From Bacteroidota bacterium (lineage in GTDB: Bacteria; Bacteroidota; Ignavibacteria; UBA10030; UBA8401): DNA of 64,000 bases. Within the stretch, counting starts at the first letter, position 1. Each line of letters opens with the position of its first letter. The stretch lies in assembly GCA_021796215.1 (NCBI GenBank), contig JAJYOK010000005.1:1-64000 (forward strand), given 5' to 3'. Below are positions 3,373-60,555 of the stretch, piece after piece. Under the pieces are notes generated by a model. The model was not told the DNA's origin. It ran no database searches and saw nothing but the letters and a program-made list of their open reading frames with translations. The position numbers were made by a program, and so were the translations under genes.

Positions 3373-3380
3373 CGTTCGAA

Positions 3381-6300
3381 TTATTTCAGCAGCACCATAC
3401 GTTTCGTCGAAACAAAATTCCCTGCCTGCAGCCGATATAAATAAACACCGCTGGCAAGATTGCTTCCATCCAGACTTACTTCATACGTTCCCGGAAATTT
3501 TCGTTCGTTTACAAGCGTTTTAATTTCCCGCCCAAGAACATCGTACACTTTCAGCGACGTGAATACCGCTGACTGAATCGTGAACCGTATATTCGTTGTC
3601 GGGTTGAACGGATTTGGGTAGTTCTGTTCAAGTGTGAAATAATCAGGAGCCAAATCTTGCTGATGTTCTTCAACCGATGTGAGAAGCGGAAGCTGCAAAT
3701 GCACAACCGAATCGCTTAAAATATAAACGGCAGAGCCATACGCGGGCAGAGTTGCATTGAATGTCAGCGAATCGCTAGAGAATGTCACAGCATACGAAGA
3801 ATCATTGTAAACGTCATTCATGTAATACGTTTTGCCATTGACCGCGCCGCCGGTAAAATAAACGTTCGGCGAACCTCCGCCTGCAAGTGTGATTGAAACT
3901 GAAGCTGAAGAGTTGTTAAAGTTTTCCAACGCGATACCGTTCTGATCTGCGTAGGGACGAGTATAACCGTACACCAAACTATTACCTGTAGAAAGGCGAA
4001 TAAATGAGTGTGTTGCAAACGCGGGGAACAAGCCGCGAATCCACGCGAGTTTTTGATAGTGTGGCTGAAGCAAACTTTTCCCGCTAAAATTCCAATCAAC
4101 AACGCCGCGGCGACGATGATCAAAATTCGAATCGCCGAGTCCCATTCCAACTTCTTGCCCTTCCCAAATCATCGGCATTCCGGGCGCTGTGAATATCACG
4201 GTTCCTAACGGCATCGTTTTCGGATACGAACCGCATAAGTACGCAATTCTATCTTCATCCTGATTTTCGAGGAAACGTAAGAACGAAGAATTCGGTCCGG
4301 GATAGTAATTGTTGTTGTAAATTTTTGCATTCAGATTGTTAACATTGAAACCATACTGCGCTTCATTATGAATTTCATCTTTCAGTGTCCAATCATACGC
4401 GCCATCAACGCCGCCGTTATCATCGGCATAATTCACTTCGGTTCCGCCGCCGGTGCCAGCCGTTTCGCCAAGCAGATATGAATCCGGTTTCACGTGCTTG
4501 ATTGCCTGACGAACAGGAACGCCCATTTCATTCTCGCCGCCTGCGCCGTTGTTCGCCCGGTTGTGCGGACCCCAATAAACATCAAAACGAAAACCATCTA
4601 CGCCCATCTGTTTCACCCACCACGAATAAACTCCAGTCATGTATGCGCGCGCATCAACGTCTGCCCAATTATAATTTAGAAGCTGTGACGAAAAGCCTCC
4701 GTAGTAAACAAAACCGTCAGGATCGATTGACTGCGGCCCTACACCGTTGTCACCCGAAGGTATGATCGCGTGTTGGTAAAAAGTCCAATGAGGAGAATCT
4801 GTCCGAAAGATTCTTCCTTCCGAAACGAACGGATGCGCGTAACTTGTATGATTAGGCGTGACATCAAGAATCACTTTTAATCCAAGCTGATGTGCCTGGT
4901 TCACAAAATTTTTGAAATCAGTGTTTGTTCCATATTCACGAGCGACAGTATAGAAATCAACAATGTTGTATCCCGGACCGCCTCCATTGTCAATCGGAGA
5001 AGCATTCTGCATCACGGGCAAAACCCAGATAATATTGAATCCCATATTTTTGATATAATTCAAATACGGAAGTGCGGCGTTGATTGTTCCTTGCGGCGTG
5101 AGCCCTTTGAAAAAGATACTATAAATGCGGCCATTCTTCACCCATTGCGGTACAGTTGCAAAAGTTGCACCGGTTGCGGTTCCATCTTTGTTGACATCGA
5201 AAAAAGAACGCGTAGTATCTGCATTGTTGTTGAGGTCTTTGGCAATGAGCGTAACATAATATTCCCCAGGTTCAGTGGGAATTGCAAAAGATAGTTGAGA
5301 TTGTGTTGAACCGTCAACACCAGCAAGACTTTGCGGGTTTGCCGGATCTGTTCCCCACAGAAATGTCAGCTGAGATGATTGTCCGGAATCGGGGTCTGAG
5401 CTTTGAACTGCACTGAGTGTGATGTCGGAACCTGAAGCTGAGAACGTGATCTTCGCCGTTGGTGAATGATTTATGAAATAAATAAATGTGATTGAGTCCG
5501 ATGTTTGAATCGCCCCTGTCGAATCTCTGACAAGCGCGTGAAAAGAATTGTGTCCTTCTACCAGCGTCTCGTTCACACTGAATTTCCCGTTCGTAACAGA
5601 AGTTGAAATCGAATCTTGGCTGTTCTGAACGACAGTGACTGAATGAATTGAAGTGTCGGCTACCGTTCCGTTGATAGTGCGTCCAGACAAACGTGTAGTG
5701 AAATCACCGAGCGTCGTAATTTGAACAAATCCTCCCCGCACAAAAAAAGAAGCGGTGTCAGACACTTCGCTGCCTGCAAGATTCTTCACGGTGAGTTTCA
5801 TAAACCGTGTACCGTTATAAAGCGAAATTGGCGAAAGAAAACTTAGAAGGTTGGTAGCCGGATCGTACATCGTACCCGGGATTGAATACGATAGTGTATC
5901 AATTTGAATGACAAAAGAAGATGTATCAATACCGCTTGCAAGCGAAGAAAAGACATATGCAGAAATCACCGGGAGCTGTGTGGAAACAATTCCGGATTTC
6001 GAATTTGGAAGAAAATGATAAATAGTCGGGCTTTTTGTATAAAGGACTGAATTGTTATTGTCCGCCGCATTCTGAAGCGGATTCAACGGATCAGGGATCC
6101 ATGTGTTTCCGTTTTCATTAAATTTGTACTGATAAGCACCGGCAACTCCTCCGCCCGATTGAGGTCCGCCAACACGTAAACGATACGTCTTCGACCAAAT
6201 TCCTGTTGATTGATTTTTAGTCATTAACGAGGGATCGTTCGCCGGAATGACTCCACTTGCGTTATGTCCCCAGCTATTAAACTCTCCCGGCACATACACA

Positions 6301-6413
6301 GTTGATGGATTACCACTCGGTTTGTAATAGAACGTTACATCAACGCTGTCTTGAGCAAAAACAAACGAAAACAATCCGGTCATCAATCCAACAATCCAAA
6401 AAAAACTTCTCAT
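3381..6413 (-). CDS. T9SS-exported GH13 alpha-amylase
   Basis: I prefer the start at 6413 (MRSFFWIVGLMTG) because AAGGA lies 6 nt upstream and the signal peptide becomes canonical. The longer ORF start at 6440 overlaps the previous stop by ATGA and is the alternative. The 1010-aa product has an N-terminal CBM48-like domain (YVPGEFNSWG), Ig-like domains, a GH13 barrel from about residue 434 and a T9SS sorting domain ([10 protein letters not shown] near 934, ending KRMVLLK). GH13 regions are visible: LDVTPNHTS (about 514), GFRFDVYWG with the nucleophile Asp (about 609), LGETAGTGG with the acid/base Glu (about 648). Region IV reads ENQDED (about 719) instead of the usual NHD, so the transition-state His is Gln. 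It should be exported to the cell surface and attack starch there. Confidence 0.88.
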   Translation of the reverse strand: MRSFFWIVGLMTGLFSFVFAQDSVDVTFYYKPSGNPSTVYVPGEFNSWGHNASGVIPANDPSLMTKNQSTGIWSKTYRLRVGGPQSGGGVAGAYQYKFNENGNTWIPDPLNPLQNAADNNNSVLYTKSPTIYHFLPNSKSGIVSTQLPVISAYVFSSLASGIDTSSFVIQIDTLSYSIPGTMYDPATNLLSFLSPISLYNGTRFMKLTVKNLAGSEVSDTASFFVRGGFVQITTLGDFTTRLSGRTINGTVADTSIHSVTVVQNSQDSISTSVTNGKFSVNETLVEGHNSFHALVRDSTGAIQTSDSITFIYFINHSPTAKITFSASGSDITLSAVQSSDPDSGQSSQLTFLWGTDPANPQSLAGVDGSTQSQLSFAIPTEPGEYYVTLIAKDLNNNADTTRSFFDVNKDGTATGATFATVPQWVKNGRIYSIFFKGLTPQGTINAALPYLNYIKNMGFNIIWVLPVMQNASPIDNGGGPGYNIVDFYTVAREYGTNTDFKNFVNQAHQLGLKVILDVTPNHTSYAHPFVSEGRIFRTDSPHWTFYQHAIIPSGDNGVGPQSIDPDGFVYYGGFSSQLLNYNWADVDARAYMTGVYSWWVKQMGVDGFRFDVYWGPHNRANNGAGGENEMGVPVRQAIKHVKPDSYLLGETAGTGGGTEVNYADDNGGVDGAYDWTLKDEIHNEAQYGFNVNNLNAKIYNNNYYPGPNSSFLRFLENQDEDRIAYLCGSYPKTMPLGTVIFTAPGMPMIWEGQEVGMGLGDSNFDHRRRGVVDWNFSGKSLLQPHYQKLAWIRGLFPAFATHSFIRLSTGNSLVYGYTRPYADQNGIALENFNNSSASVSITLAGGGSPNVYFTGGAVNGKTYYMNDVYNDSSYAVTFSSDSLTFNATLPAYGSAVYILSDSVVHLQLPLLTSVEEHQQDLAPDYFTLEQNYPNPFNPTTNIRFTIQSAVFTSLKVYDVLGREIKTLVNERKFPGTYEVSLDGSNLASGVYLYRLQAGNFVSTKRMVLLK

Positions 6414-6436
6414 TTTTCCTTCTTTCCGGCTAACAA

Positions 6437-7816
6437 TCATCCCTCTACCAAAATTCTGCCTGACATAGCGTCAACGCTAGATGTATAAATGCCGTTTTTA
6501 CGACGAAGAATTTCTCCTGTTACTGCATCCTTCAATTGTTTATCAGAAGGAATCTTAAACTTCTTCCCGCTTATCGAACGATTGACTGCAATGAAAATAT
6601 CTTGTTTATCCGTCGAGCGTTTATAAATAAAAAGGTCATTTTCTGCGGCGATAGTTTGAAAACCTCCTTGACGAAGTGCCGGCAATTCATTTCGCAAAGA
6701 AATCATCTTCTGAAAATGTGCCCGTAAATCTTTATTCCATTTGTTTTGATCCCAGATCATCGTTCGGCGGCAATCTGGGTCTTTCCCGCCTTCCATTCCA
6801 ATTTCATCACCGTAATAGACCATCGGCGCCCCGAGATACGTCATTTGAAATAATACAGAAAGCTTTACCTTTGCAACATCGCCATCGCATAATGTGAGAT
6901 AACGCTCTGTGTCGTGGCTTCCTAAAAGATTTTGTAAATCATAATTTGCGTCGGGCGGATAAAGGGAACGAAGATGCGTGAGCTTCTCATCAAATTCATT
7001 TGCAGAGATTTTCTCGCGGCAGAAAAAATCGAGACAGATTCCACGCCACAAGTAATTCATCACACCGTCAAATTGGTCTCCCTGCAGCCACGCGGACGCA
7101 TTCTCCCAAATTTCACCAACGATGTAACAGTCCGGGTTAATTGATTTTACCAGTTTCCGCCATTCCACCCAAAAATCGTGTGGAATTTCATTCGGCACAT
7201 CAAGGCGCCAGCCGTCAATCCCCATTGAAGTCCAGTAGCGCGCAACATCAAACAAATATTTTTTAACATCGGGATTTTCTACCATCAATTTCGGAAGCGC
7301 ACCGAGTTTCCACCAACATTCATAATTCGGCTTGTTCGGCGGGCCGACAGGATAGGAGTAAATATTGTACCAGCCGGCATATTTCGATTGAGCGCCATTT
7401 TTTTTAATATCTTCAAACGCCCAAAAATCTACACCGGTGTGATTGAACACGCCGTCAATAATAATTCGTATTTTCTTTGCGTGACAAGTATCAACCAGCT
7501 TTTTGAACAAATCATTCGTACCAAATTCCGGATCAATATTCATATAATCCGAAGTAGTATATTTGTGATTCGACGACGACGCAAAGACCGGATTCAAATA
7601 AATTGTGTTAGCACCGAGGTCTTTTACATAATCGAGATGATCAATAATTCCCTGAAGATCGCCTCCGAAAAAATTCCTTCCCGTCGGCTTGGCACCCCAT
7701 GGCTGAACGCCGGGCGGATCATTACTTGGATCACCGTTAGCAAACCGCTCAGGAAATATCTGGTAGAAGATTGCGTCTTTGACCCACGCGGAGGAATGAT
7801 TAATTGTTTCATTCAT
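6437..7816 (-). CDS. Cytoplasmic GH13 maltodextrin hydrolase (cyclomaltodextrinase/neopullulanase type)
   Basis: This 459-aa enzyme has no signal peptide and no N-terminal Ig-like domain, starting almost at the barrel (WVKDAIFYQIFPERFANGD). All four GH13 regions are intact: DGVFNHTG (about 124), GWRLDVPNE with the nucleophile (about 202), GEIWENA with the acid/base (about 234) and GSHDTER (about 300). The YQIFPERF start and LNPVF...SNHKY segment are typical of GH13_20-like enzymes that degrade cyclodextrins or maltodextrins inside the cell. The lack of the N-domain that shapes dimers in classical neopullulanases makes exact specificity uncertain. It is the first gene after a terminator hairpin at 7853-7884 and probably opens a sub-operon with the secreted amylase, GH57 and binding-protein genes. 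I see no good ribosome binding site before its ATG. Confidence 0.88.
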   Translation of the reverse strand: MNETINHSSAWVKDAIFYQIFPERFANGDPSNDPPGVQPWGAKPTGRNFFGGDLQGIIDHLDYVKDLGANTIYLNPVFASSSNHKYTTSDYMNIDPEFGTNDLFKKLVDTCHAKKIRIIIDGVFNHTGVDFWAFEDIKKNGAQSKYAGWYNIYSYPVGPPNKPNYECWWKLGALPKLMVENPDVKKYLFDVARYWTSMGIDGWRLDVPNEIPHDFWVEWRKLVKSINPDCYIVGEIWENASAWLQGDQFDGVMNYLWRGICLDFFCREKISANEFDEKLTHLRSLYPPDANYDLQNLLGSHDTERYLTLCDGDVAKVKLSVLFQMTYLGAPMVYYGDEIGMEGGKDPDCRRTMIWDQNKWNKDLRAHFQKMISLRNELPALRQGGFQTIAAENDLFIYKRSTDKQDIFIAVNRSISGKKFKIPSDKQLKDAVTGEILRRKNGIYTSSVDAMSGRILVEG

Positions 7817-7979: not shown

Positions 7980-9470
7980 TTACTTCAGCAATAACATTTT
8001 CTTCGTGAAGCTGAATTTACCGGCTTCAAGGCGATAGAGATACATACCGCTTGCTAATCTGCCTGCATCGAACGAAACCGTGTATTGCCCAGCTGCTTGC
8101 TTCTCATTCACCAGCGTAGCAACTTCCTGGCCGAGAATATTGTATATGCGAAGTGTTACAAGATTATTGGCTGGGATAGCATAACTGATCGTTGTTGACG
8201 GGTTGAATGGATTAGGATAGTTCTGTGCAAGACTGAATCTCGTCGGTAAATCTGACGAAGGAATACGCTGCACCGAAGTAACTTGATCGCCAAATGTATT
8301 ATAAACGGTCATGCTGGTACCGTTCAATAAGAGCGAATGGTTCAATGCAAAACCAGCTTCATTATCCATGTAGCTTGCACCACCGTTCAGCGTATCAACA
8401 CCATTAAACACCGCACCAAACTTATATTCAACATATTGTGCAACGCCGGCAGCAAAAACAAGTTTTGTTGTCCATTTATTATCTGCAGCGATCGAATCTC
8501 CGTGAGTTCCGTCGTCGTACAATCTTTGGAGATTGTGCACGGTATCAGCGGTAGTGGTGTCAGCAAAATTCCAATTGCTTGGCCAGTTCAATGGCTTGAC
8601 TCCGCCACCAACCCAGACACTCTTCAAACCCGTTATGGTCGTTTCATGGAATCGTTCCTTCGCACCGGTCATATCCATAACAAACTTCACTGTATCGTCA
8701 GTTGTTGTTGAGTTAACGACTGTAATTGCCGGAACGCGCGGCGCCAAAACAGTATCCTGATCTACCATATGATAAAATGAGTTATTGGCGCTTTCCCAGC
8801 CGCTGTTGCTGAACTGGTCTGTCCCGGCGGCAAAGAATTTGTACCCGATCGAGTCGCCGACGGCCACAGTAAACTGTAACTTCACATTATAAATATGCGG
8901 GTTGAGAAGAGTCTTAGTCATTCTGATTCCCGGGCCCCAATTCAGAGGAGGGGTATCTCCTCGTACCCAAATTGAATCGGAAGCATCAGTAAATCCCTGG
9001 CTCTGCAGTGTAGTCATGTCCGCCTGGAAAGTAATGTAATGAGTAACCCCGGCAGTCGCACGCCGGTTAAAATAATCAACTGCAATTTGTTGATTGACAT
9101 CCGCTGTAACTAGGTATGTTCTATTCGGATCATTCTCCCAAGAATCGCTGGAAGAATTATGAATCACGAATTTGTAATTAAGAGTCTTTCCAGCAACAGA
9201 ATCTGGAAAAGGAACGGTGAGTGTGTACAATGAATCATTTGTATTGTCCTTTACCAGCACAAACATATTTCCACCCCAGGTTATTGAGTCGCCAGCCATC
9301 ATCTGCCAGTCGCCACGGACCACAACGCTATCCGAAGCGGGGTGGAACAATGAAAGCTGCAAGTAAACTCCCATGTCAACCTGGAAGGTAACATTCTTTG
9401 TAGCAAAAGCTGGCGAACTCATCGCCACGACAAATGCTGCAATAAATAATGTCGTTAAATGCTTTGACAT
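7980..9470 (-). CDS. T9SS-exported surface protein with starch-binding-like repeats
   Basis: The 496-aa protein has a clear signal peptide (to SSPAFA), three repeats resembling CBM20-type starch-binding folds, and a T9SS sorting domain ([10 protein letters not shown], ending KKMLLLK). The repeats share a VTFQVDM/ITFQADM/VKFVMDM opening, a WVRGD or WVGGG turn, and YKFVI/YKFFA/YKFGA strands; the third contains YDDGTHGD, as in the GH57 C-domain nearby. It has no catalytic domain. I infer a surface glycan-binding protein that holds starch near the amylases, an analogue of SusE/SusF rather than a homologue I can demonstrate. A strong ribosome binding site (AAAGGAGAAACACAATG) precedes it. It follows the 1405-aa GH13 gene after 147 nt, a gap wide enough for its own promoter, though I cannot fix one. 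Confidence 0.8.
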
Positions 9471-9617: not shown

Positions 9618-12600
9618 TTATTTGAGCATCAGCATTTTTTTAGTTTGAATAAAATTATTCACCTTAAGCGTGTAAAAATAGACTCCTGTCGCAACGGAAG
9701 CACCGGCATTATTCCTACCATCCCAAACAACCCGGTAAGTCCCTGTGGGACAATATTCATTAATCAGTTCTTTGACTTTCTGTCCAAGAACATTGTACAC
9801 ATTCAATGTAACAAAACCATTGCCGGGCAGCACAAAGCTAATAGTCGTCGTCGGATTAAACGGATTGGGATAGTTTTGAAAAAGGCTGTACGTCTGCACA
9901 ACATTAAGCGGTGCATTTACCGATGTTATGAAAGCTGTGTCAGCGAGAATCATCACAGCGGTTTGATACGACGAAAGTCTCATTGCAAAATTACTGATAC
10001 TTGTTCGATTAACCGGATATACACTGCCGCTCATCAGGTCATTTAAATAATATTGTTTTGCCGGCAATAGATTGAACAGAGCCGAATCAATAGAAAAACT
10101 GAACGTTGTCTGCCCTCCGGTTAGATTTGTAGCAATAAGCGCAGGCAATGAATCTACTACACGTGCAAAAGCAAAAATTGTGTCGGGTGAATTTGTACTC
10201 ACGGTAGAATATTTTCCAAATTCGAGCGCTTTGAATTTGTGCCTGTAGGCAATTAACTGTTGATAGAAAGAACGAAGATTATTCGGATCGCCCCAATTCA
10301 CAAGGCCTCGTTGAGTAATTTCTCCCACTTCTTGTCCCGCGTAAATTAACGGGATTCCAGGAAGCGTAAACTCTAAAGTAGCGGCAGCTCGTGTTTGTGA
10401 AAGGTTATATTGAGAAATAAAACGAGGTTCATCATGGTTTTCAATATATTTCATAGGAACTGCATATTGCGGATAATTGGGCGACGCATAATAATCTTCT
10501 GTGGCACCAAGCTGCGGGATTAAGGTGTTGTTTGAAAAAGCGTTGCGCAATGCATTGATGGTACTGTAATCATATCCAGCGTCGAATTTCTTGTCGAAGT
10601 AAGCACCACTCGTATCTTTTGCATCAAGCTCTCCAAGAAGGAATGCGTCGGGCTTAATAGTTTTTAACGAAGTCCGCCACCTTTGCCAGAATTCCGGCCC
10701 GTTCTTGCGAGTATCATTTATTCCCCATGCAACATCGCACCTGAAACCATCGACGCCATAATATTCCATCCAAAACTTCGCCATGTTAATGAGGTAATTC
10801 ATGTTTCTTGAACTGTCCGGGCCATCATAACTAATCGAAGGTAAATCGGTCCACGTAAACATATATTTGTAAGAACCGTCAGAATTCCAATCATAGAATC
10901 CGTGATAGGGCGACGCCGTGCCATATTTGACCGCATCAAGCATGAAGCTGTGTGTATTGTGCGTGTGGTTGACAACGTAATCCATCATCACTCTAATCCC
11001 GTTTGCATGAGCAGAATCAACAAAAGTTTTGAAATCACTCTTCGTGCCATATTGAGGATTGATGTCATAATAATTTTTAATTGCATAACCGGGGTTGCTC
11101 GGCGAAAGCTGCGGGGTAGGATGAATGGGCATAAGCCAAATAACATTTACTCCAAGATTTTTTATCTGCTGTATTCTATTTGTCAGGGCAGAAAAATTAC
11201 CATCAAGGCTGTAGGTCTTCACATAAATTTCGTAGATCACCGCGGAGTCAATCCATGCTGCATGCCAACGAGAGATATCCGGGAAATGAGCGCCCGCCGA
11301 ATCAACCACAAGCGCTACCCGTTGATATGCCGTATCCTTTGAAGTTGCGCACGTCAACGTAAAAAAGTAATCTCCGCTTGCTGATGGTACCGAAAATGTC
11401 GTTGCAGATGAAGTCGTTGAAGAAAAGTTAATATGAGCCGGATTTGTACCATCCTGAGACCAGCTAAATGCCTGTGAAAATCCATCCGGATTCGTTGTGC
11501 CACTGCCGTCAAGTGAGACAGTGCTGCTTGAAATGTTTTTCACGATGGTGATGTTCGGCTTGTGATCTTTAATCCTGTTGAAATAAATTTTTACGCTATA
11601 ACTTGTTTCACTCGTTCCATATTGCACGGAAGCTTGAAGTTTATTAATTCCTTCAGAAAGAACAACATTGACCGATGCTGTGTCATTAACAAAATTAAGA
11701 TTATAATTGGCTGCTCCAACCGCGAGTGTACCTGCATGCACGCTTGAATCGCTTACAGAAACATAAACCTTAATCGTGTCGCTCCATCGTATTTCTCCAC
11801 CGTCGGTGAGGATTCTGACATAAGGCTTATGAGCTAAAGAAGAAGAAATATCACCCGGCATGATGAGAAGCGCGCCTCTCTGATTTGAAGCGAGTTTCAC
11901 ATACCGCGAACCGCCGTTCTTGAACGAATAATTGAAATTCGAGAGATTGCGCTTTTCTATTTGAGCATTATAAAAAAATCCTGCATCATAAATGTTCGGC
12001 TGCTCATCAAAAAGCGACCCGCCATACGTCTGTGTTACTTTCCAAGCGCCAGTAGCATTTCCAAGATAAGAATAGGCAGTGAAATACCATCCTTTCGCAA
12101 AACTCCCCATCACGGATTCTAAAACGCTTATCGGTATTTTAAACGTAAAAATGCCTGATGTTTTGGCATCGGAATTCAGCGTGATGCTTGCGGCTGAAGG
12201 TGAAGAAATATTTGAACTTGTATCAATCCGATTCTCCGTTCCGGCGAGCACGGAAGAATTCGGTGGAGCAATGACAAAATACACTCCAATATTTGTAAAA
12301 TCGGGGATTTGAACTCCCGCTTTGTTCGGATCTAAAACGAGCGAGCCACCAACAGAATTTACAATTTCAAAGGAAACACGAGTGTAATCAGAAATGGAAG
12401 ACATGGCAACAGTAAACAGAAGCGAATCATCTGTTGTATTTGTAGCTATGTCTATTTCTTTTATATCAGCAGATCCACCTGGACTGAATGTAGGATATTT
12501 GTAATTTCCCGGCCCATTGTCATCAAGGTCAGCATCGATATAATGAAATCCTGAGTTTTGGGGAAAAACTCCAAACGTTAGATAACTGGTCGCCGAATTT

Positions 12601-13835
12601 CCATTGACATCCGCACCGATGAATTTAAGCTGGTGCCTGCCCTGAGTCGGGATAAAGGAGCTTGTCTGAAAAAAAACACCGCCGGCAATCGAATCAGTTT
12701 TTGTCACAGAAACCGGTGAGCCATCTAAATAAACAACGATCGAGGATTTATTTATTGTCTTATCAGAATCGCTCATCATCAAGTTGCCACTCACAGAAAT
12801 GGAATCGCTTGCGATAAAGTTCTGTCCTTGCCTCGGCGAAACAATGTTAAAATATGGATTCGAAACAATGTGTTTAACGGCTATTGTTTCAAAATCGGAT
12901 GCCATAAGAGGATTGTCTGGATCATCTATGTACTGACCGCCGTTAATTATGTACTGGTATGGCGATGGAGTTCCAATTGGCAACTGTTCGGTAATTGAAT
13001 ACACGCCGTCACTGTCTGGCCCCGCGAGCGGGTCACTTCCGTAGCTATTGAACGCTCCTTTTACAGAAACAGAATTGAGCTTGCCAACAAGTTTAAAATT
13101 AGGCGACTGTGGATCAAAATAGAAAGTGTACGGTGCCGCAATGATTTGGTCAACCACTTTGAATGTGGATAGTGCTGTATCAACCCCACCGCGCGAGTTC
13201 TTTACAGTAATCATCACCGTGTGAGTCGTGAACGAAAAAGGCGCCGGAGTAAATGAAATTGTCCGAGAGGTCGTATCAAAATATTGGCCGGCATTTGCTA
13301 CGGGGGTATTATCAACTGATATTCCGATATCCGCTGCGGCTACATCCGAACTATCCGACCATGAAACGTGAGCAAAAATGAGCGAAGAAAAATTATTGAT
13401 AATTGAGCCATTCATCGGAGAAACATAATACAACATCGGGTCTTTCACATTGAGAATGCTATTGTTATAACCCGAGCCGTCAACCTTCGAATTGTCTGGA
13501 TCGGTAATCCACACATCAACAACTGTATCGACGCCATTAATGGAGTACGTAACGAATTTGTATGAATAGACAGCGGGCAACAAGTTCAATGTTGTTGTCC
13601 ATAAGTTATTGCCGTCATTCTTCAGAGGTATGACGTGTTGATTTGAACCGGTTCCGTCAGGATTGTTTCCCCAATTATTCATTGTGCCATTCAAACCAAC
13701 GCCTGCCTCATTTGTTAAGAGAGTTCTGTTTAAATGAAACGTGACGGGAATAGCATTCCCTGTAGACTGTGCAAATGAAGCCGACACTGCCACTAAGAAG
13801 AGAGGAAAAAATGTTTTTGTTTTTAAATGAATCAT
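9618..13835 (-). CDS. Large T9SS-exported GH13 enzyme (amylase/pullulanase-like)
   Basis: The 1405-aa protein has a signal peptide (ending ASFAQ) and CBM48-like E-set domains (GTMNNWGNNPD; VKGAFNSYG). Around residue 442 a segment (DADLDDNGPGNYKYP) resembles the C-terminal binding domain of glucodextranases. Ig-like domains follow, then a GH13 barrel from about 867 and a T9SS tail ([10 protein letters not shown] near 1323, ending KKMLMLK). The catalytic regions are MDYVVNHTH (about 953), GFRCDVAWG (about 1033), GELDAK (about 1070) and ENHDEPR (about 1133), all intact. The glucodextranase-type module suggests contact with alpha-glucans or the cell surface. It is the largest hydrolase here and lies 31 nt after the PorV-like gene, in the receptor operon. 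The precise bond preference is not readable from sequence. Confidence 0.87.
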   Translation of the reverse strand: MIHLKTKTFFPLFLVAVSASFAQSTGNAIPVTFHLNRTLLTNEAGVGLNGTMNNWGNNPDGTGSNQHVIPLKNDGNNLWTTTLNLLPAVYSYKFVTYSINGVDTVVDVWITDPDNSKVDGSGYNNSILNVKDPMLYYVSPMNGSIINNFSSLIFAHVSWSDSSDVAAADIGISVDNTPVANAGQYFDTTSRTISFTPAPFSFTTHTVMITVKNSRGGVDTALSTFKVVDQIIAAPYTFYFDPQSPNFKLVGKLNSVSVKGAFNSYGSDPLAGPDSDGVYSITEQLPIGTPSPYQYIINGGQYIDDPDNPLMASDFETIAVKHIVSNPYFNIVSPRQGQNFIASDSISVSGNLMMSDSDKTINKSSIVVYLDGSPVSVTKTDSIAGGVFFQTSSFIPTQGRHQLKFIGADVNGNSATSYLTFGVFPQNSGFHYIDADLDDNGPGNYKYPTFSPGGSADIKEIDIATNTTDDSLLFTVAMSSISDYTRVSFEIVNSVGGSLVLDPNKAGVQIPDFTNIGVYFVIAPPNSSVLAGTENRIDTSSNISSPSAASITLNSDAKTSGIFTFKIPISVLESVMGSFAKGWYFTAYSYLGNATGAWKVTQTYGGSLFDEQPNIYDAGFFYNAQIEKRNLSNFNYSFKNGGSRYVKLASNQRGALLIMPGDISSSLAHKPYVRILTDGGEIRWSDTIKVYVSVSDSSVHAGTLAVGAANYNLNFVNDTASVNVVLSEGINKLQASVQYGTSETSYSVKIYFNRIKDHKPNITIVKNISSSTVSLDGSGTTNPDGFSQAFSWSQDGTNPAHINFSSTTSSATTFSVPSASGDYFFTLTCATSKDTAYQRVALVVDSAGAHFPDISRWHAAWIDSAVIYEIYVKTYSLDGNFSALTNRIQQIKNLGVNVIWLMPIHPTPQLSPSNPGYAIKNYYDINPQYGTKSDFKTFVDSAHANGIRVMMDYVVNHTHNTHSFMLDAVKYGTASPYHGFYDWNSDGSYKYMFTWTDLPSISYDGPDSSRNMNYLINMAKFWMEYYGVDGFRCDVAWGINDTRKNGPEFWQRWRTSLKTIKPDAFLLGELDAKDTSGAYFDKKFDAGYDYSTINALRNAFSNNTLIPQLGATEDYYASPNYPQYAVPMKYIENHDEPRFISQYNLSQTRAAATLEFTLPGIPLIYAGQEVGEITQRGLVNWGDPNNLRSFYQQLIAYRHKFKALEFGKYSTVSTNSPDTIFAFARVVDSLPALIATNLTGGQTTFSFSIDSALFNLLPAKQYYLNDLMSGSVYPVNRTSISNFAMRLSSYQTAVMILADTAFITSVNAPLNVVQTYSLFQNYPNPFNPTTTISFVLPGNGFVTLNVYNVLGQKVKELINEYCPTGTYRVVWDGRNNAGASVATGVYFYTLKVNNFIQTKKMLMLK

Positions 13836-13866: not shown

Positions 13867-14874
13867 TTAGAATCCGATTGTCAATCCAAACTCCTGCAAG
13901 TCTTTCAGCAGCCCGTAATTCTCATAACCATAATCGAACTTAATGTTAAATTGTGAAGTAATGTCATAATTAAGTCCTATACCCAAGGTAAGGCCTTCCT
14001 CGCTCCCAGGCACAAAAAGAGACTTATATCCGAATCTCAAAGAGACGAATTCGTTAAAGGAATACTCCCCACCAACATTCATTGTTTGTACATTATCACT
14101 CGGGTGCAATGCATCAACTGCAAGAGTGAGCCTGCTATCTGAAGTCTTTATGACATCCATTGCCAAGCCAATTCTAAATATAAGTGGGAGCGGATATGAA
14201 CCAGTGTAATACTCGGCCGGTATTTTTGAATTATCACCTGCGACAGACGGATCAGGGTTGTGCGTAATATAAAGGTCTTGACCTGACATCTGCATATCTG
14301 TGCCAAAATTTGCTATCTCCATTCCAATCTTCATGTCGTTAAACGGTGTAATATAAAGAAGGCCTGCGTCAAGAGCGTAGCCGGTTGCAGATTCCCTCCA
14401 TATTTGCTGAATCACCATTTTCGCTGTACCGCCTATTGAAAACCGGTCAGTTAAGTTTCTAGAATATGAAATGCCGATTGCCCAATCGTTGGCATCCCAT
14501 GTCTCGCCAGTTCCATCAGGTTGACTTACCGTTGTAACTTCCGAACTTCCGTATGCAAGATTCGTAACACTCACGCCAATAGCATTGTTCTCATCAAGCG
14601 CCACCACCGCAGCAAAGAAATTATAACTCGTACCAACCAAGTAATTTGTGTGTTCTAATAGCACTTCATTACGGTCCAATCGCGAGATGCCCCCTGGATT
14701 CCAATACAGTGCGGCCGGGTCATTAGCTACGGCAGTAAATGCGCCTCCCATAGAAATTGCACGAGGGCCGGCACCGATTCCTAGGAATGGCGCGGCTGTT
14801 GTACCCACCTTATTTTGTGAGTACACTTGAGTGAGTGCAAGAAAAAAAATCAGAACTAGAATACGTTTTTTCAT
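13867..14874 (-). CDS. PorV/PorQ-family outer-membrane barrel protein
   Basis: The 335-aa protein has a signal peptide (ending TQVYSQ) and the opening TTAAPFLGIGAGPRAISMGGAFTAVANDPAALYWNPGG, typical of PorV/PorQ-family barrels (UPF0164-like). PorV is the T9SS shuttle that passes cargo to the sortase; members outside the core T9SS set are often found beside secreted proteins and their role is unclear. Here the gene sits between the 1223-aa large protein and the exported GH13 enzyme, suggesting dedicated help in exporting or anchoring those proteins. GAGGACCTGAG before the ATG is a good ribosome binding site. A second family member lies at 59514, again next to a large protein of the same family. 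Confidence 0.82.
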   Translation of the reverse strand: MKKRILVLIFFLALTQVYSQNKVGTTAAPFLGIGAGPRAISMGGAFTAVANDPAALYWNPGGISRLDRNEVLLEHTNYLVGTSYNFFAAVVALDENNAIGVSVTNLAYGSSEVTTVSQPDGTGETWDANDWAIGISYSRNLTDRFSIGGTAKMVIQQIWRESATGYALDAGLLYITPFNDMKIGMEIANFGTDMQMSGQDLYITHNPDPSVAGDNSKIPAEYYTGSYPLPLIFRIGLAMDVIKTSDSRLTLAVDALHPSDNVQTMNVGGEYSFNEFVSLRFGYKSLFVPGSEEGLTLGIGLNYDITSQFNIKFDYGYENYGLLKDLQEFGLTIGF

Positions 14875-14887
14875 CTCAGGTCCTCAT

Positions 14888-17800
14888 TTACTTGATGATC
14901 GCAAGCCTACCGTACTTTTGACCAACTCCAGGCGCGTCGACAAGATAGAAATATACTCCATATGCAACATCAAGATTTTCTGATGTTCTCAAATCCCAAT
15001 CGATTGTACCGTCCGAAATATTTTGAGACGTCGGCATAATCAGTTTTCTAACAAGTTCTCCGCGTACTGTGTAAATATAAATAGTAGATGCTGCCGGGAG
15101 GTGAATGAAAGAAATTTTTCTCTCTCCCCTGCCGCTTGTAATAGTCGGCGGCAACGGCGATTCTTGAGAAGTCGCTGCGATATAAGGATTTGGTACAACT
15201 CTGATCATCTCGAGTTGATTGCTAGCAAGCTTTTTATCTACAATGGCTGATCTAGTAGTAATGGTAAGTTGATCGCCATTGATAAACGGCTTCGCCACAC
15301 GTATACTCAGTGTATCGCCAAGCGTCGGAAGATGATTCGTAGTGTCTGTACCGACAGGTGACAATGCCCAGGTTATAAATGTCGTGTCTGTTCCCAATTT
15401 CGTCTTTGCTTTAGCCAGAAGGATTACAATGTCATCAGCAGAAAAAAAACCGCATCCGATATTATCACTTATACAATCTGGTTCGAGTAATGCATATGGC
15501 ACCAAACCACCTGTGCGAGGGTCAACTACACGGAAATTAGTATTCTCTTTCGCAATCGTCAGCGGGCTTCCTTGATACGTGATAGTCAGGTTGGTAGAAG
15601 TATCTGTCTTTGAGGAATCAAATACGAACGTGTAATCTTCAGGATACACAGTACCTGTATCTGTGACCTCACTATACTGAAATGGATTGAAGGTATATTT
15701 GAAATTGGGTTTAGAATATGTCTTGTTCCAATTTGAAGTTGTATCATATGCTACAGTCCAGTCATTATCTACAGTAATATACATCCCATTGAAGGTATAC
15801 TTGTCGCGATCACCTTCAACCTGTATGGCATTGAGAGGAACTTGTGGCACTCCAAAAAACATGAGCGTATCAGGAGACGAAGAATTTGTGAAATCAATTA
15901 CGTAGTAACCAGTTGTCACAGGCAAAACGCCGTTGATCGTATCTGCAAACCCTATCCTGTAAGTTTTGTCTGGAACGAGCCGGGGATCAACAACGTTGAG
16001 ATACGCCTTCCCTGTGCCAAAAGAAGGAATTCCTTGTGCTGGTGCAAAAAGATTAGGAACATCAGGTCCAACATAGCCGGCAGATGGCGCTCGTGGAGTC
16101 ACAAAAGCCGTATTAACATCCTGCCGCACTTGTCCATTCGCAGCAATTGTTATATACTTCGGGTCCTCTGCTGGATACGTGTCAGCTTGTTCGTCTCCAG
16201 TTGTGTAGGCAGTCACTGCATAGTAATATCCCTGCCCATTTTGTAAGGCTGTGTCAACATAGGTGTGAACGATACCTCCGTCATTTCCAAGATAGAACGT
16301 TGGTAAACCCGCAATATCCTGAGACGGCGGAAGAAAATACCCTTGCGTGCCATCATTAAGATCAAACGTTGCTAATGCTTGTCCTCCCGCTTCTGTAAAA
16401 CCCGGATCGGTCGAGCGGTAAATTTTATACCCCTCAAATGAAGCAGCCTCTTCAGCGTTGCTTGTCCAAGTGAGTGTAACTTTCTTATCGCCTGGTACTG
16501 CTGTCAGATGCGGCTTGGGAGGAGGTAGCACGAAATCATAATTTTTGTCATAAATCCTTTGAACAATTTGCTTGTTCCTAAATATCTGAGAGAAATCTGC
16601 ACCGAAGACCAACGCCAGTGAAAACCGCTCCGTGTGTTCAGGTAACAATGGGAAATAACCTGAAGAATAAATAAAGTCTCCATCTTGAGGAAGAGCCGGA
16701 ATAACATCGAAGTACCCCGGGACCATGCGGCTCCACAATGTCTCATTATTGTTCATTGGCGGAGACGAAGTCTGATTGAAAAAGTTAAAACTCGTCAGCC
16801 CAATTTGGTCAGACTCGTTGACATCGGTTTTATCAAAATGAGGCTCTCCTTCAGTTGGTATCCCATCGCCTTCACCTTGGTCATGAGTATTGGGAACCCC
16901 ATCAGCACCGATATCGTCTTTCTTCGGGTCCCAATTACCATTTTCATCGCCGGACCAATGGGATTTTATAGTACCCGGATATTTACCCGTAACAGGATCT
17001 CTCGGCTGAGTATAATCAGGAACCCAACCAGTAACGACATGTCCCGGCCCGGCATCACGGCTTTCATCAATCATAGTATTATTAAGTCCGGCACCCGTAA
17101 AATAATTTTTATAATAGAGTGGCCTCGTATCAGTCCGATAGACTTGTCCTGTGGTTGTTTTGAAAACTCTTTGATAATGAATGCTGTAATTTTCGTCTAT
17201 CAAACCATTAAGGTTGTCGTCTAAACCATTGTTTGCGACTTCAAACAGAGTTTCCCCATTATAGATTTTGTAAGAAGTTCCTAAAGAATAAACAGTGACT
17301 GTATCAGTATCGCTATGCAAAAGGGTGTCAAGGTTGACAATCGTTCTCTCGTAAGTATTCTGATCAATTAAAATAATTTTGTTGTTCGGCCAGTTAGAGT
17401 TACTACCTGCGCTTGTCCGAGAAAGAGTTCTTGACATGACAAAAGAATTTGTAGTCGAATTAAAGGTGAAGTCGGACTGCTGAAATTGCGGGCTGGTCGG
17501 ATCAACTGCATCGTTATCGTTGTCAATGCCATCAAATTGATTGCCGGGGCTTTCTAAGTACGCATATCCAGCATAACCCGTATTATTCCTCACGCCGGTT
17601 AGTACTCTGTTAAGAGGAATCCATAAAGGATCAGACGTTTTATCATCGGAATCCCAAGTATACGTTAAATTATTGTTCACATCAAAAAATCCAAGGTCAT
17701 CCGAGCAATCCACATATTGCTGTCCAACATCGCCAACACATCCTCCAACGACTTCTCCGAAAACTGCCTTTTTATAGGTGGTAGTGCTTATATTAGTAAT

Positions 17801-18559
17801 ATCATAGAGCCAAAAAAGAACATCCTGCGCTTGCACTTGTGACCACTGTAATCCCCTTACGCGAACAACAATACCAATACCATTTCTCGTAGTGTCAGTT
17901 GAATCGGGATGGAATCCATAAAAGGTGCGTGTTTGTACACTATTATCTTGAGCATCGTCCATAACGAAATAACTTTCCTGATCTGCGCTGAATACACCTT
18001 TCCCAAAATAGCCATTCCACGCGGCCTGTCCACTTGAATCAACCCAATCTGGATGATCTGGCCAAAACGAAGGCCACGATGAAGGAACATTGCTCAAAGC
18101 AAGCGTGTCCTGATTCTGATTCACATACCCGGGCTCGGGCTCAAAACCTTGAAAATGACCGTCCCGAGAATCGACCTTTGCAGATTGGCCTGTTCGTGGT
18201 CCGGGTGATATAGTAACTGAATGCACCGTGCTGCTGAACACGGGGTTGCCAGTATTGTTAACACCAACCTGATATGTTCCAGGAAGCTCAACACCGACAA
18301 GCGGCGTTACATCACCTATGTAGCTGTCTTGGGTCATAGGGTATGGCCAGGCACCACGAATATCGTTCGGGTCGGTTCCAGATATAGAGCCATTGTTCCG
18401 AAACGTCAGTGCAATTCTATTCCCATCGTGGATTCCAAATCTAACATTGAGCGCATTGCCTCTATGCGTTTTTGCGTAAGGAATCAGATTGTCTTGTTGA
18501 GAATAAGACATCGAAATTAACAAAAGGAGCAGAAAAATCAGAATAACTATTTTTCGCAT
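14888..18559 (-). CDS. Large secreted protein with FN3 domain and calcium-type repeats, unknown function
   Basis: The 1223-aa protein has a signal peptide (ending ISMSYSQ). Its middle part is rich in Asp/Asn loops like thrombospondin type 3 calcium sites (GIDNDNDAVDP; GLDDNLNGLIDE). A fibronectin type III domain follows (AVPGDKKVTLTWTS...YKIYRST), and the C-terminus is a FlgD-like Ig fold beginning VVPNPY and ending YGRLAIIK, a divergent T9SS-type tail without PNPFNP. I do not recognise an enzymatic domain. It is paralogous to the protein at 60556-64000: the SWPS..W region, LQWS segment, DDLGFF and FN3 domain align by eye. It lies 15 nt after the TonB receptor gene and 13 nt before the PorV-like gene. 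That position is where a SusD-type protein would be expected, so a role in glycan capture is possible but unproven. Confidence 0.75.
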   Translation of the reverse strand: MRKIVILIFLLLLLISMSYSQQDNLIPYAKTHRGNALNVRFGIHDGNRIALTFRNNGSISGTDPNDIRGAWPYPMTQDSYIGDVTPLVGVELPGTYQVGVNNTGNPVFSSTVHSVTISPGPRTGQSAKVDSRDGHFQGFEPEPGYVNQNQDTLALSNVPSSWPSFWPDHPDWVDSSGQAAWNGYFGKGVFSADQESYFVMDDAQDNSVQTRTFYGFHPDSTDTTRNGIGIVVRVRGLQWSQVQAQDVLFWLYDITNISTTTYKKAVFGEVVGGCVGDVGQQYVDCSDDLGFFDVNNNLTYTWDSDDKTSDPLWIPLNRVLTGVRNNTGYAGYAYLESPGNQFDGIDNDNDAVDPTSPQFQQSDFTFNSTTNSFVMSRTLSRTSAGSNSNWPNNKIILIDQNTYERTIVNLDTLLHSDTDTVTVYSLGTSYKIYNGETLFEVANNGLDDNLNGLIDENYSIHYQRVFKTTTGQVYRTDTRPLYYKNYFTGAGLNNTMIDESRDAGPGHVVTGWVPDYTQPRDPVTGKYPGTIKSHWSGDENGNWDPKKDDIGADGVPNTHDQGEGDGIPTEGEPHFDKTDVNESDQIGLTSFNFFNQTSSPPMNNNETLWSRMVPGYFDVIPALPQDGDFIYSSGYFPLLPEHTERFSLALVFGADFSQIFRNKQIVQRIYDKNYDFVLPPPKPHLTAVPGDKKVTLTWTSNAEEAASFEGYKIYRSTDPGFTEAGGQALATFDLNDGTQGYFLPPSQDIAGLPTFYLGNDGGIVHTYVDTALQNGQGYYYAVTAYTTGDEQADTYPAEDPKYITIAANGQVRQDVNTAFVTPRAPSAGYVGPDVPNLFAPAQGIPSFGTGKAYLNVVDPRLVPDKTYRIGFADTINGVLPVTTGYYVIDFTNSSSPDTLMFFGVPQVPLNAIQVEGDRDKYTFNGMYITVDNDWTVAYDTTSNWNKTYSKPNFKYTFNPFQYSEVTDTGTVYPEDYTFVFDSSKTDTSTNLTITYQGSPLTIAKENTNFRVVDPRTGGLVPYALLEPDCISDNIGCGFFSADDIVILLAKAKTKLGTDTTFITWALSPVGTDTTNHLPTLGDTLSIRVAKPFINGDQLTITTRSAIVDKKLASNQLEMIRVVPNPYIAATSQESPLPPTITSGRGERKISFIHLPAASTIYIYTVRGELVRKLIMPTSQNISDGTIDWDLRTSENLDVAYGVYFYLVDAPGVGQKYGRLAIIK

Positions 18560-18574
18560 AGACTTACCTTTGCC

Positions 18575-21376
18575 TTAGAAAGAGTACGACATTCCGAATT
18601 GAATTCTTCGAGGTGCAGAATAATAGTCGGGCCTTGTATAATAATCCTGAATAGAGGCTACTCGCTGAGAAGGATTACTGGCAAGCAGGTGCTCTTCATA
18701 CAGAGACCAATCGGGTTGACCACTATCCGTAAAAACATTCGTCGCATTTTTAGTATCCAGAACATTATCTATTCGAGCAAAAACGGTGAAAGTTGATCCG
18801 CCAAATTTGAAATCTTTATAAACACGGGCGCTTAAATCGTACGAAGCTGGTTTCGCGCCAGAATTGTACAGCAACTCACCCACGTTAGAAGTCGAGGTAA
18901 GCTGAGGGGTATATGGTGTTCCACTTCCGAACCGAAATATCATACTTGCTCCCCAGTCACTTGGGTTGACATAATTCAGCGTCGTATTGAATGTATGATG
19001 TTGATCCCAATCCAAAGGAATCAACTGAGTTTCGGGAAGCGCACCGTTATTCCTAAGATTGAAAGCCGTTCTTGGATCGGATGCATCTCCTCGTGCAACT
19101 TGAAATGTGTAATCAATGGTAGCTGACAATCCCTCTGAGAATCGTTTGTCAATCGATAAGACAATTCCTTTCACAAAACCAAAATCGGTGTTTACATATT
19201 GACTGTAGATTGCAGAGCCGCCATACACATATTGGATCTCATTAAGCGTCCCTGACAAATTTCTGATATCGCGGAAGAAACCTGTTATGTCAATTGCGAT
19301 GTCGTCAGTTAGCTGTTGTTGTAAGCCAAGTTCGCCGCTTGTGGTTTGTTCAGGTTTAAGATCAGGATTTCCAACGATACCGAGGTTTGTGCTACCGCCC
19401 GTCACATTGAGTTTATATCCAGGGTTTTCGTACAATTGGTCAAAGTTTGGCATTTGAAAAAAAAGCCCGTATGAAAAATGGACTATTCCTCTATCTGTTA
19501 TAGGAAACGCTACTCCTAAACGCGGGCTGAACTGCCATTTATTTGTAGCATCCTTGTACCAGTATTTCATCCGCGCTGCAACAGCTTGATCGGGCGTACC
19601 ACCCGGAGCTACAATGCTGTCTTGGTTCTGCGGTTTCAAAGGGAGATAGATGTTTGGATCTGATGGATCAGATAATACTTGACCGTCAGGGTGGAACCAA
19701 TCAAACCGTACGCCCACATTTATAATCAATGAATTGTATTCCATTTTGTCCTGAAGGTAGGCCGAAAGCTGTTGAGGTTTGCGAAGATATTCCAAATTAT
19801 TCTGGTTCGAAAGCGGTGGTATTACCACTGGACCGACCAGATACGGATTACCATCAAGCACGGGATTTCTATTGACGTCCACGGGGGACATTTGCAAATT
19901 GATATTATGAAGGAAAAGCTGGTATTGATCGAACTCGAAACCGGCTTTTATCATGTGCGTTTGAGTCACCTGGCTCGTTATGTCAAACTTCGCGATATAA
20001 GTATTCGTACTGTGAATATTGTGAGCCATGTTGGCCCCGCCCGTATAAAAAGTTGCCTCTGGTGCTACGAGCAAAGATTGGTGCACATATTTCTGGTTAA
20101 ATGGATCCAAGCGCGAAAAGAGATCAGAGGGAGAAAACGCCGTAGTGTCTAAATACTCTCTGAAATCTCTGAAATAATACGATAAGCCAAGTGTATAGAA
20201 TGTCGTTGAGTTTAGTGTATGAGTCAGAGTTAGTGTATTCAAATACCCTTTCTTGAAATTACTTAACTCCCCGTCTGGATTATATTTATAATTCCAGTCA
20301 AAGTCTTTACCTCGCGAATTATCGAGAATGAAATTGTAAGAGGTCTCAATATTTGGCGAAAATTTGTAAGTCAGTTTTCCCTGTCCATACCCTTCCATAT
20401 ACGGGGCTAATGGAATGCTCTTACCATCACCACTTTGTCCGATAATCCAATCCGAGGGACTCGGTGCCTGAGTATTACTGATATCTCTTGTATTGAATTT
20501 TCTTACTCCATATATATTGCCTTCATCATAATAGTACCGGGCATCAAGGTAAAAGAAAAGCTGATCCTTAAGTATTGGTCCATCAAAGGAACCTTCAAGC
20601 CAATTTGTATTTATCGGATTCACCCTTTGAAGCCCCGTAAAGACATCCGAATGGCTAGTAACATATCCTCCTGTGTAAGCCGTCACACTACCGTGAAGAT
20701 CATCGCCTCCGTTTTTCGTAGCGATGTTAACTATCCCGCTCATTGCCTTTCCGTATTCTGCATTAAAGGCACCTGTCACAAGTTGCATTTCCTGAATCGA
20801 GTTCTTGTTCACATCGACTACAGTCGAACCATCAAATGCATCAGTAACCGGCACACCATCAATCCAATAAGTTACCTCTCCACTTCTTCCACCTCTGAAA
20901 TGCCCAGCAACAACACCCGCTTGCAAGTTCAAGATGTCTTGAAAATTCGTAACCGGCAATGCCTGGATCTGAGAATTGTCCACTACGGCTGTAGACGCCG
21001 TCATATCTTTTTGAACAAGGGGGCGCTGTGCTACAACAACAACTTCCTTTACATTGACCGATGTGGACGTGAGTTGTATATCTATATGAGTAGTCAGATC
21101 AATATTGACTCTTACCTGCTCGAACCTTGCCGAATTGTAACCGATGGATTGCGCCCGTAACGTGTACGCACCTGGTGGAATGTTTGTAATGAAATAATTT
21201 CCATCCGGATCGCTCGCATTACCCAATGATGTTCCCTCTAAGAGCAATGTGGCACCAACGATCGGTTCACCGGTACCGGCATCTGTAATGCGTCCTGCAA
21301 TTTTTCCTGTTGTGCCGGCAAAAACGACAGATGAGCAGACAATCAACGCAGCGATGAAATAGTACCATCGTCTCAT
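18575..21376 (-). CDS. TonB-dependent outer-membrane receptor
   Basis: The 933-aa protein has a signal peptide (ending SSVVFAG) and a CarboxypepD_reg-like domain (about 22-110, GRITDAGTGEPIVGATLLLEG), as in SusC-type receptors. The VKEVVVVAQRP segment and plug domain follow (LPVTNFQDILNLQAGVV, GEVTYWIDGVPV, NAEYGKAMSGIVNIATKNGG), then a 22-stranded-type barrel ending MSYSF. Such receptors import ligands across the outer membrane using TonB energy. Genomic context points to starch oligosaccharides. The gene starts 18 nt after the LacI regulator gene with AGGAATTACCTT before the ATG, so the two are almost certainly cotranscribed. No SusD partner is encoded next to it. Confidence 0.88.
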   Translation of the reverse strand: MRRWYYFIAALIVCSSVVFAGTTGKIAGRITDAGTGEPIVGATLLLEGTSLGNASDPDGNYFITNIPPGAYTLRAQSIGYNSARFEQVRVNIDLTTHIDIQLTSTSVNVKEVVVVAQRPLVQKDMTASTAVVDNSQIQALPVTNFQDILNLQAGVVAGHFRGGRSGEVTYWIDGVPVTDAFDGSTVVDVNKNSIQEMQLVTGAFNAEYGKAMSGIVNIATKNGGDDLHGSVTAYTGGYVTSHSDVFTGLQRVNPINTNWLEGSFDGPILKDQLFFYLDARYYYDEGNIYGVRKFNTRDISNTQAPSPSDWIIGQSGDGKSIPLAPYMEGYGQGKLTYKFSPNIETSYNFILDNSRGKDFDWNYKYNPDGELSNFKKGYLNTLTLTHTLNSTTFYTLGLSYYFRDFREYLDTTAFSPSDLFSRLDPFNQKYVHQSLLVAPEATFYTGGANMAHNIHSTNTYIAKFDITSQVTQTHMIKAGFEFDQYQLFLHNINLQMSPVDVNRNPVLDGNPYLVGPVVIPPLSNQNNLEYLRKPQQLSAYLQDKMEYNSLIINVGVRFDWFHPDGQVLSDPSDPNIYLPLKPQNQDSIVAPGGTPDQAVAARMKYWYKDATNKWQFSPRLGVAFPITDRGIVHFSYGLFFQMPNFDQLYENPGYKLNVTGGSTNLGIVGNPDLKPEQTTSGELGLQQQLTDDIAIDITGFFRDIRNLSGTLNEIQYVYGGSAIYSQYVNTDFGFVKGIVLSIDKRFSEGLSATIDYTFQVARGDASDPRTAFNLRNNGALPETQLIPLDWDQHHTFNTTLNYVNPSDWGASMIFRFGSGTPYTPQLTSTSNVGELLYNSGAKPASYDLSARVYKDFKFGGSTFTVFARIDNVLDTKNATNVFTDSGQPDWSLYEEHLLASNPSQRVASIQDYYTRPDYYSAPRRIQFGMSYSF

Positions 21377-21394: not shown

Positions 21395-22474
21395 TTAATC
21401 ATGAGGTGCTGCAACTTCATTGATATCTTTGTGATGAACATAATCTTCAATGTTGGGAGAAATTTTCTTCGCTCCGCAACTTTGTCGTACTACTAACTCT
21501 GGCATGAAACGCATTTGTATCGGCAGCGCCGATGGATTTTGTTTGCGCTTTACTATCTGATCAACCGCAAGCTCTCCCATGCGGTGCATCGGCTGGCGCA
21601 TTGTTGTCAATCCAAAATGCTGCGCTAGTTCAATGTCGTCAAAGCTGACAATAGCAACATCGTCCGGAACACGCAAGCCCTTTTCACGAAGCGCACTAAT
21701 CGCTCCGATAGCCTGCACGTCGCTTGAAATAAAAATTGCTGTTGGCAGGCTGGTGCCAAGCTTCAGCATTTCTTTCATGGCAAGATAACCGGCATCGCGG
21801 CTGAAACCATCCAACTTCGTGACATCACTGACAATAATATTACGCTCGTTGACTTCAATAGTATGTTTCTTTAACGCGGCGCGAAATCCTTCCAGACGAA
21901 TTCGCGCAGGATCGCTTTTAACGTTTGCCGTAATCATTCCAATATTTGTATGGCCGAGAGATATGAGGTGCTCGGTGGCGGTTTGCGCTCCTTGAAAATT
22001 TTCCACTGTAATAGAATCAAATTCTTCATGAAAGGTATCAACGAGGACAATCGGTATCTCCAAATCTTTCCACTTCTTTGCAAAAGTATCCGGCAGACGC
22101 ATGGAAAAAAAAATAATGCCGTCTACTCTTCCGCGGCGCGAACTGCGGCGAAGCGATTCATCTATTTCATCTGGATGATTGACGCCATGAAGAATGAGAT
22201 CAAAACCAATAGAAGAAATTTTTTCCTGCACACCTTGAAGAATTTCAATGAAAAAGTAATTCGTGAAGAAGGGAATTATTGCGGCGAATGTGTTCGTGCG
22301 CTGTCGGGCAAGACCTTGAGCATACACATGCGGCTGGTAATTGAGTCGTTTGGCAACAGCGAGAACTTTTTCGCGCGTTTCTTTCGTCACATTTGGGTGA
22401 CTATTGAAAACACGCGACACCGTACCGATGCCAACCTTAGCTTCTCTTGCTATATCGTAAATGGTAATTGCCAA
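21395..22474 (-). CDS. LacI-family transcriptional regulator of the starch locus
   Basis: The 359-aa protein has the LacI helix-turn-helix and hinge at residues 1-60 (ITIYDIAREAKVGIGTVSRVF, NYQPHVYAQGLA) and a periplasmic-binding-protein-like effector domain (AAIIPFFTNYFF, GVIFF-type strands, VSFDDIELAQHFGLTTMRQP). The start codon is TTG: no in-frame ATG lies near the conserved N-terminus, and TTG GCA ATT places the helix-turn-helix at the standard distance. It is the first gene of the receptor operon. A perfect palindrome lies between its -10 box and the start codon, so autorepression relieved by a maltodextrin-type effector is likely. The ligand is inferred from context only. Confidence 0.9.
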   Translation of the reverse strand: MAITIYDIAREAKVGIGTVSRVFNSHPNVTKETREKVLAVAKRLNYQPHVYAQGLARQRTNTFAAIIPFFTNYFFIEILQGVQEKISSIGFDLILHGVNHPDEIDESLRRSSRRGRVDGIIFFSMRLPDTFAKKWKDLEIPIVLVDTFHEEFDSITVENFQGAQTATEHLISLGHTNIGMITANVKSDPARIRLEGFRAALKKHTIEVNERNIIVSDVTKLDGFSRDAGYLAMKEMLKLGTSLPTAIFISSDVQAIGAISALREKGLRVPDDVAIVSFDDIELAQHFGLTTMRQPMHRMGELAVDQIVKRKQNPSALPIQMRFMPELVVRQSCGAKKISPNIEDYVHHKDINEVAAPHD

Positions 22475-60533: not shown

Positions 60534-60555
60534 AGTATCCTCGTTTTTCGATTTC

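Follow-up and report, generated by a model that had tools for sequence, protein, structure and literature searches.

A candidate surface partner of TonB-dependent receptors, encoded beside a PorV/PorQ-family barrel in an Ignavibacteria genome

SusCD accounts for glycan feeding by Bacteroides, and the locus described here raises the question of which protein stands in a comparable place beside a TonB-dependent receptor in a member of the Ignavibacteria. The window, that is the whole stretch of DNA analyzed, comprises 64,000 nucleotides (positions 1 to 64,000 of contig JAJYOK010000005.1, assembly GCA_021796215.1). As described in an earlier note, made from the sequence alone and exact in its coordinates, the gene of a 1223-aa protein lies directly 3' of a TonB receptor gene with a gap of 15 nt, and a PorV-like gene follows it; we find a gap of 13 nt on that side (Table 1). 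Our analysis leads us to favor, with moderate confidence, the reading that this middle protein is the surface partner of the receptor, exported by the type IX secretion system (T9SS), held on a barrel of its own and serving alpha-glucan uptake at this locus.

Table 1. Positions of the focal triad, its parts and its neighborhood, and of a second triad, in the 64,000-nucleotide window
Feature	Position	Strand	Domains or basis
TonB-dependent receptor, 933 aa	18575..21376	minus	CarbopepD_reg 26-114, Plug 122-214, barrel 349-872
Middle protein, 1223 aa, ATG start	14888..18559	minus	signal-like N-terminus, multi-domain beta, putative C-terminal PorU/PorZ-type T9SS domain
Asp/Asn-rich calcium-loop-like motif, residues 343-352 (DGIDNDNDAV)	17504..17533	minus	conserved among the family
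FN3-like domain, about residues 683-790, approximate boundaries from sequence	16190..16513	minus	fold search and Pfam fn3
C-terminal T9SS-type domain, about residues 1115-1223, PorU/PorZ sort, ends RLAIIK	14891..15217	minus	profile comparisons
PorV/PorQ-family outer-membrane barrel paralogue, 335 aa, proposed anchor	13867..14874	minus	NCBIfam; fold of the close L030 relative
LacI-type regulator, upstream of the receptor	21395..22474	minus	domain searches
GH13 alpha-amylase, 1405 aa, T9SS-type C-terminus	9618..13835	minus	domain searches
CBM20 protein, ordinary T9SS type A tail	7980..9470	minus	domain searches and tail comparison
Rest of the alpha-glucan locus: GH57 784-3372, GH13 3381-6440, GH13 6437-7816	784..7816	minus	
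Second triad: PorV/PorQ barrel 59514-60572, middle protein 60556 onward	59514..64000	minus	

The middle protein and the conservation of the triad

The middle protein had been described as lacking a recognised function, and this description is borne out by Pfam and NCBIfam, neither of which gives a match at E<=1; judged by these profile libraries, it belongs to a large family that has no model in either. A PDB sequence search returned no convincing relative (best E 0.79), and no carbohydrate-binding domain was recognised by domain searches. Its N-terminus, read by eye, carries a hydrophobic, signal-like segment. The AlphaFold model built on an alignment of 55 sequences (pLDDT 84) is nearly all-beta and multi-domain, and a fold search with this 1200-residue model revealed no whole-protein match, the structures returned being FNIII arrays, complement C3 and PorZ, all with low TM-scores. 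The FN3 character proposed in the earlier note is thus seen in the fold search, while Pfam fn3 matches just one of 32 family members. The calcium loops proposed there correspond to Asp-rich, calcium-loop-like stretches around residues 343-352, 445-459 and 538-549, partly invariant; the core D346 N347 D348 D350 was invariant in the first alignment of 14 sequences.

Five full-length copies of the middle protein are encoded in the own genome (3.37 Mb in 44 contigs), and all five stand between a TonB receptor gene and a PorV/PorQ gene; divergent versions occur at four further places (L024, L025, L043 and L044). Relatives in Kryptonia, Melioribacteraceae and Marinimicrobia, found in a search of named contigs, show the same gene order. 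By profile search, 137 of the 149 class genomes carry the family, mostly with several copies (E<=1e-10, at which the weakest matches may cover the tail only), as do 109 of 297 genomes of the phylum (E<=1e-40). Forty regions from the class and 20 from other classes, chosen for their match to the middle protein regardless of neighbors, were examined, and 71 triads satisfied the distance rule outright in the order receptor, middle protein, barrel. Five triads fell outside the rule: L101 and L105, which resolve once the rule is relaxed (in L101 an additional ORF separates receptor and middle protein), L038, L039, and the second triad of our window, which is complete in L022 but whose receptor lies beyond the window edge. 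At L038:7458-14456, from Marinimicrobia, two middle proteins of 1298 and 1032 aa are arranged in tandem between receptor and barrel, and L039 is alike.

Random genomic neighborhoods of the homologues had been named in the earlier note as speaking against a receptor partner. A TonB receptor upstream and a PorV/PorQ barrel downstream were found at essentially all loci checked, and the order holds in Marinimicrobia as well as in several of the phylum's classes; a chance neighborhood is therefore rejected. The genes just outside the triad are variable, falling into 24 and 25 clusters among 68 triads, which argues that the conserved unit is the triad itself. Distances between triads were correlated for all pairs of components (receptor and middle protein 0.88, middle protein and barrel 0.79, receptor and barrel 0.84), with permutation maxima of 0.12 for the first pair, 0.14 for the second and 0.12 to 0.23 over all three, co-divergence values that partly reflect the shared descent of the host genomes.

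These data bear on the likeliest of the rival explanations, namely that the middle protein is a scaffold or adhesin docked on the PorV/PorQ barrel, keeping substrate or secreted enzymes close to the cell without touching the receptor, and that the operon is shared for regulation only. Such a role would suit the FN3/Ig-like multi-domain build, and pairs of type B domain and SprF are known to anchor surface adhesins (PMC9143113; PMC12618676). However, the receptor is as constant a neighbor as the barrel, and co-divergence is strongest between receptor and middle protein; we regard a scaffold of this kind as unlikely.

Several arrangements in the own genome differ from the common one. At L042:4231-8267 (contig C14) a TonB receptor gene is followed by a PorV/PorQ-family barrel gene without a middle protein, and just upstream of this pair lies the gene of a 599-aa protein whose N-terminus resembles that of a lipoprotein. 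On contig C36 the order is permuted to barrel, receptor and divergent middle protein (L044:1-5786 and L021:14029-15999). On the same contig, at L045:7450-10058, a PorV/PorQ-family barrel gene follows one whose 521-aa product ends in a weak PorU/PorZ-type tail, with no TonB receptor nearby.

The C-terminal domain and the downstream barrel

The earlier description of the 1223-aa protein overlooked a T9SS-type domain in its last ~110 residues. This domain is homologous to type A T9SS tails (hhalign probability 98, in a one-against-one comparison whose E-value is not to be over-read). It scored 13.0 bits against TIGR04183, below the cut-off of 23, and the match to this model is weak across the family, whereas all 49 ordinary T9SS tails from the same loci match it. 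The PorZ model recognised 62 of 63 family members and three of 49 ordinary cargo tails. The PorU model, which matched 56 of 63 members, recognised 46 of the 49 ordinary tails as well, so that the PorZ model is the discriminating one. In a PDB profile search with the domain, PorZ (5m11) and PorU (6za2) were ranked first, the sequence likeness of individual members to PorZ being modest. The type B model TIGR04131 matched none of the 63 members, and a pair of type B domain and SprF was therefore rejected. On these profile comparisons, the domain appears closer to those of PorU and PorZ than to cleaved tails. PorU and PorZ retain their C-terminal domain after export (PMC11285876) and are anchored at the surface by PorV and PorQ (PMC5562754).

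If the middle protein were ordinary T9SS cargo, it would be cut by PorU and either released or attached to lipopolysaccharide, and the barrel would act as its carrier during export only. The homology to type A tails and the presence of PorU in the genome agree with such a fate, but the domain is of the PorU/PorZ sort and differs from the tails that secreted enzymes of these loci carry, which disfavors ordinary released cargo. Furthermore, a single PorV serves the type A cargo of F. johnsoniae (PMC12618676), and ordinary cargo would thus have no need of a separate paralogue for each protein. Taken with these points, ordinary cargo seems to us quite improbable.

The PorV-like gene product was assigned to the PorV/PorQ family by NF033709 (212.6 bits, cut-off 90), a model matched above its cut-off by all 41 barrel relatives. 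It remains below the PorV and PorQ equivalog cut-offs (NF033710, 69.6 versus 250 bits; NF033711, 105.8 versus 220 bits) and that of PorV2, and by these scores is best classed as a paralogue that is neither PorV nor PorQ proper. At 1e-18, the PorQ model matched 40 of 41 relatives and the PorV model 33. The genome has its own canonical SprA, PorU, PorV, PorZ and PorQ, which makes the triad barrels additional paralogues. While the presence of the PorV-like gene was rightly reported before, it had been taken as mere context; its product is probably the anchor of the 1223-aa protein. It is very improbable that the barrel is instead a FadL-type channel for a hydrophobic ligand, forming a two-channel uptake unit with the middle protein serving both barrels: FadL, TodX and CymD are among its fold matches, but PorV is the top one, the family model is that of PorV/PorQ, and alpha-glucan, the substrate of the focal locus, is hydrophilic.

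The putative docking of the C-terminal domain on the barrel was modeled at L030, one of the loci where the genes of middle protein and barrel share one frame and the DNA can therefore be read through the stop. The 460 residues folded comprised the C-terminal domain, a short linker and the barrel with its signal peptide, on an alignment of 62 rows, 25 of them paired. This artificial fusion of one cognate pair reached a pTM of 0.86, with low confidence in the joining stretch. Since a perfect barrel with a freely moving domain would give at most ~335/460 = 0.73, the model must also fix the position of the domain against the barrel with fair confidence. The top PDB match of the model was 8gl6_F, PorV of the RemA-CTD-bound translocon, followed by other FadL-fold barrels. 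The model thus supports docking of the domain on the barrel, on a side of the membrane that cannot be read from it.

Substrate setting and comparison with known systems

The alpha-glucan locus headed by the focal triad includes a LacI regulator, a T9SS-tailed GH13 amylase, a CBM20 protein, two more GH13 enzymes and a GH57 enzyme. Elsewhere in the own genome, the L019 triad adjoins a binding-protein ABC transporter and the L020 triad a GH94 phosphorylase and glucoamylase-like proteins, surroundings which, as read from their genes, are consistent with a substrate-specific uptake unit. The secreted protein encoded at window positions 22608-24185 is likely a metallopeptidase, given the HEFGH motif in its translation.

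The proposal that the 1223-aa protein occupies the position of SusD next to the receptor has good support at the level of the genome, given the conserved order and the absence of SusD from the genome: neither SusD family, PF07980 or PF14322, was found there, and PF07980 occurs in 27 of 149 genomes of the class. A SusD homologue was nevertheless rejected on grounds of sequence, anchor and fold. There is no sequence match, the focal protein lacks a lipobox cysteine (of 71 relatives, five show a loose form of the pattern), and the 50 fold matches listed for the middle-protein model do not include SusD. SusD is a mostly helical TPR protein whereas the middle protein is nearly all-beta, so that the likeness between them is one of position only.

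As in SusCD/RagAB, a large extracellular protein is encoded directly after a CarbopepD_reg-bearing TonB receptor in carbohydrate loci. The SusCD/RagAB partner has a lipid anchor in place of the T9SS-type domain and barrel gene found here, and the triad receptor stays below the cut-off of the SusC/RagA model TIGR04056 (74.6 bits, cut-off 368). PorU:PorV and PorZ:PorQ share with the triad the sort of T9SS domain on a surface protein paired with a PorV/PorQ-family barrel; unlike them, the middle protein is over most of its length neither a sortase nor an A-LPS delivery protein, and the triad is tied to a TonB receptor and has many paralogues beside the canonical set. SprB-SprF, a type B CTD adhesin with PorP/SprF, likewise has a substrate gene followed by that of a FadL-fold barrel, its presumed carrier or anchor, but the triad lacks TIGR04131, its barrel is of the PorV/PorQ and not the PorP/SprF family, and a receptor belongs to the unit. 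In the Bacteroidota BAM complex with BamG (PMC12578637), a FadL-fold barrel stands next to a large one and uses its loops to bind an extracellular subunit; that complex, however, serves folding and not uptake, with BamA as its large barrel and lipoproteins as its extracellular subunits.

No earlier description of a module of receptor, T9SS-type protein and PorV-like barrel was found in the open-access journal papers searched; the nearest published ideas are the type B domain with SprF as carrier (PMC12618676, PMC9143113), PorU:PorV, PorZ:PorQ and SusCD. In the starch operon of Melioribacter roseus (PMC3534657), the genes Mros0761-0759, named SusC, SusD and SusE, stand in an order that resembles the triad. 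Judging by this order alone, the "SusD" and "SusE" may be misnamed and may correspond to middle protein and barrel.

Proposed role and its meaning

In the reading we favor, the middle protein would cross the inner membrane via Sec and the outer membrane via the type IX translocon, keeping its PorU/PorZ-type C-terminal domain neither cut nor released. By analogy with PorU on PorV and PorZ on PorQ, it would then dock on its private PorV/PorQ-family barrel. Held beside the receptor, it may capture or position ligand and pass it on, and the ligand here would probably be maltodextrins produced by the neighboring secreted amylases. The SusD role of Bacteroides would thus be filled by an unrelated protein with another route to the surface and another hold on it. 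A lid function of the middle protein over the receptor is a more tentative suggestion, which we consider somewhat doubtful. Against the partner reading as a whole stands the receptor at L042, which is accompanied by a barrel but by no middle protein.

The triad, present in most genomes of this class, probably does there what SusD does in gut Bacteroides. Many relatives, like the genome studied here, have no SusD match, and the triad offers a testable answer to the question of what partners their receptors on the outside. A function is thereby suggested for a large protein family outside all Pfam and NCBIfam models. If the reading is true, the T9SS and the PorV/PorQ family would gain a role beyond secretion, as permanent subunits of nutrient receptors.
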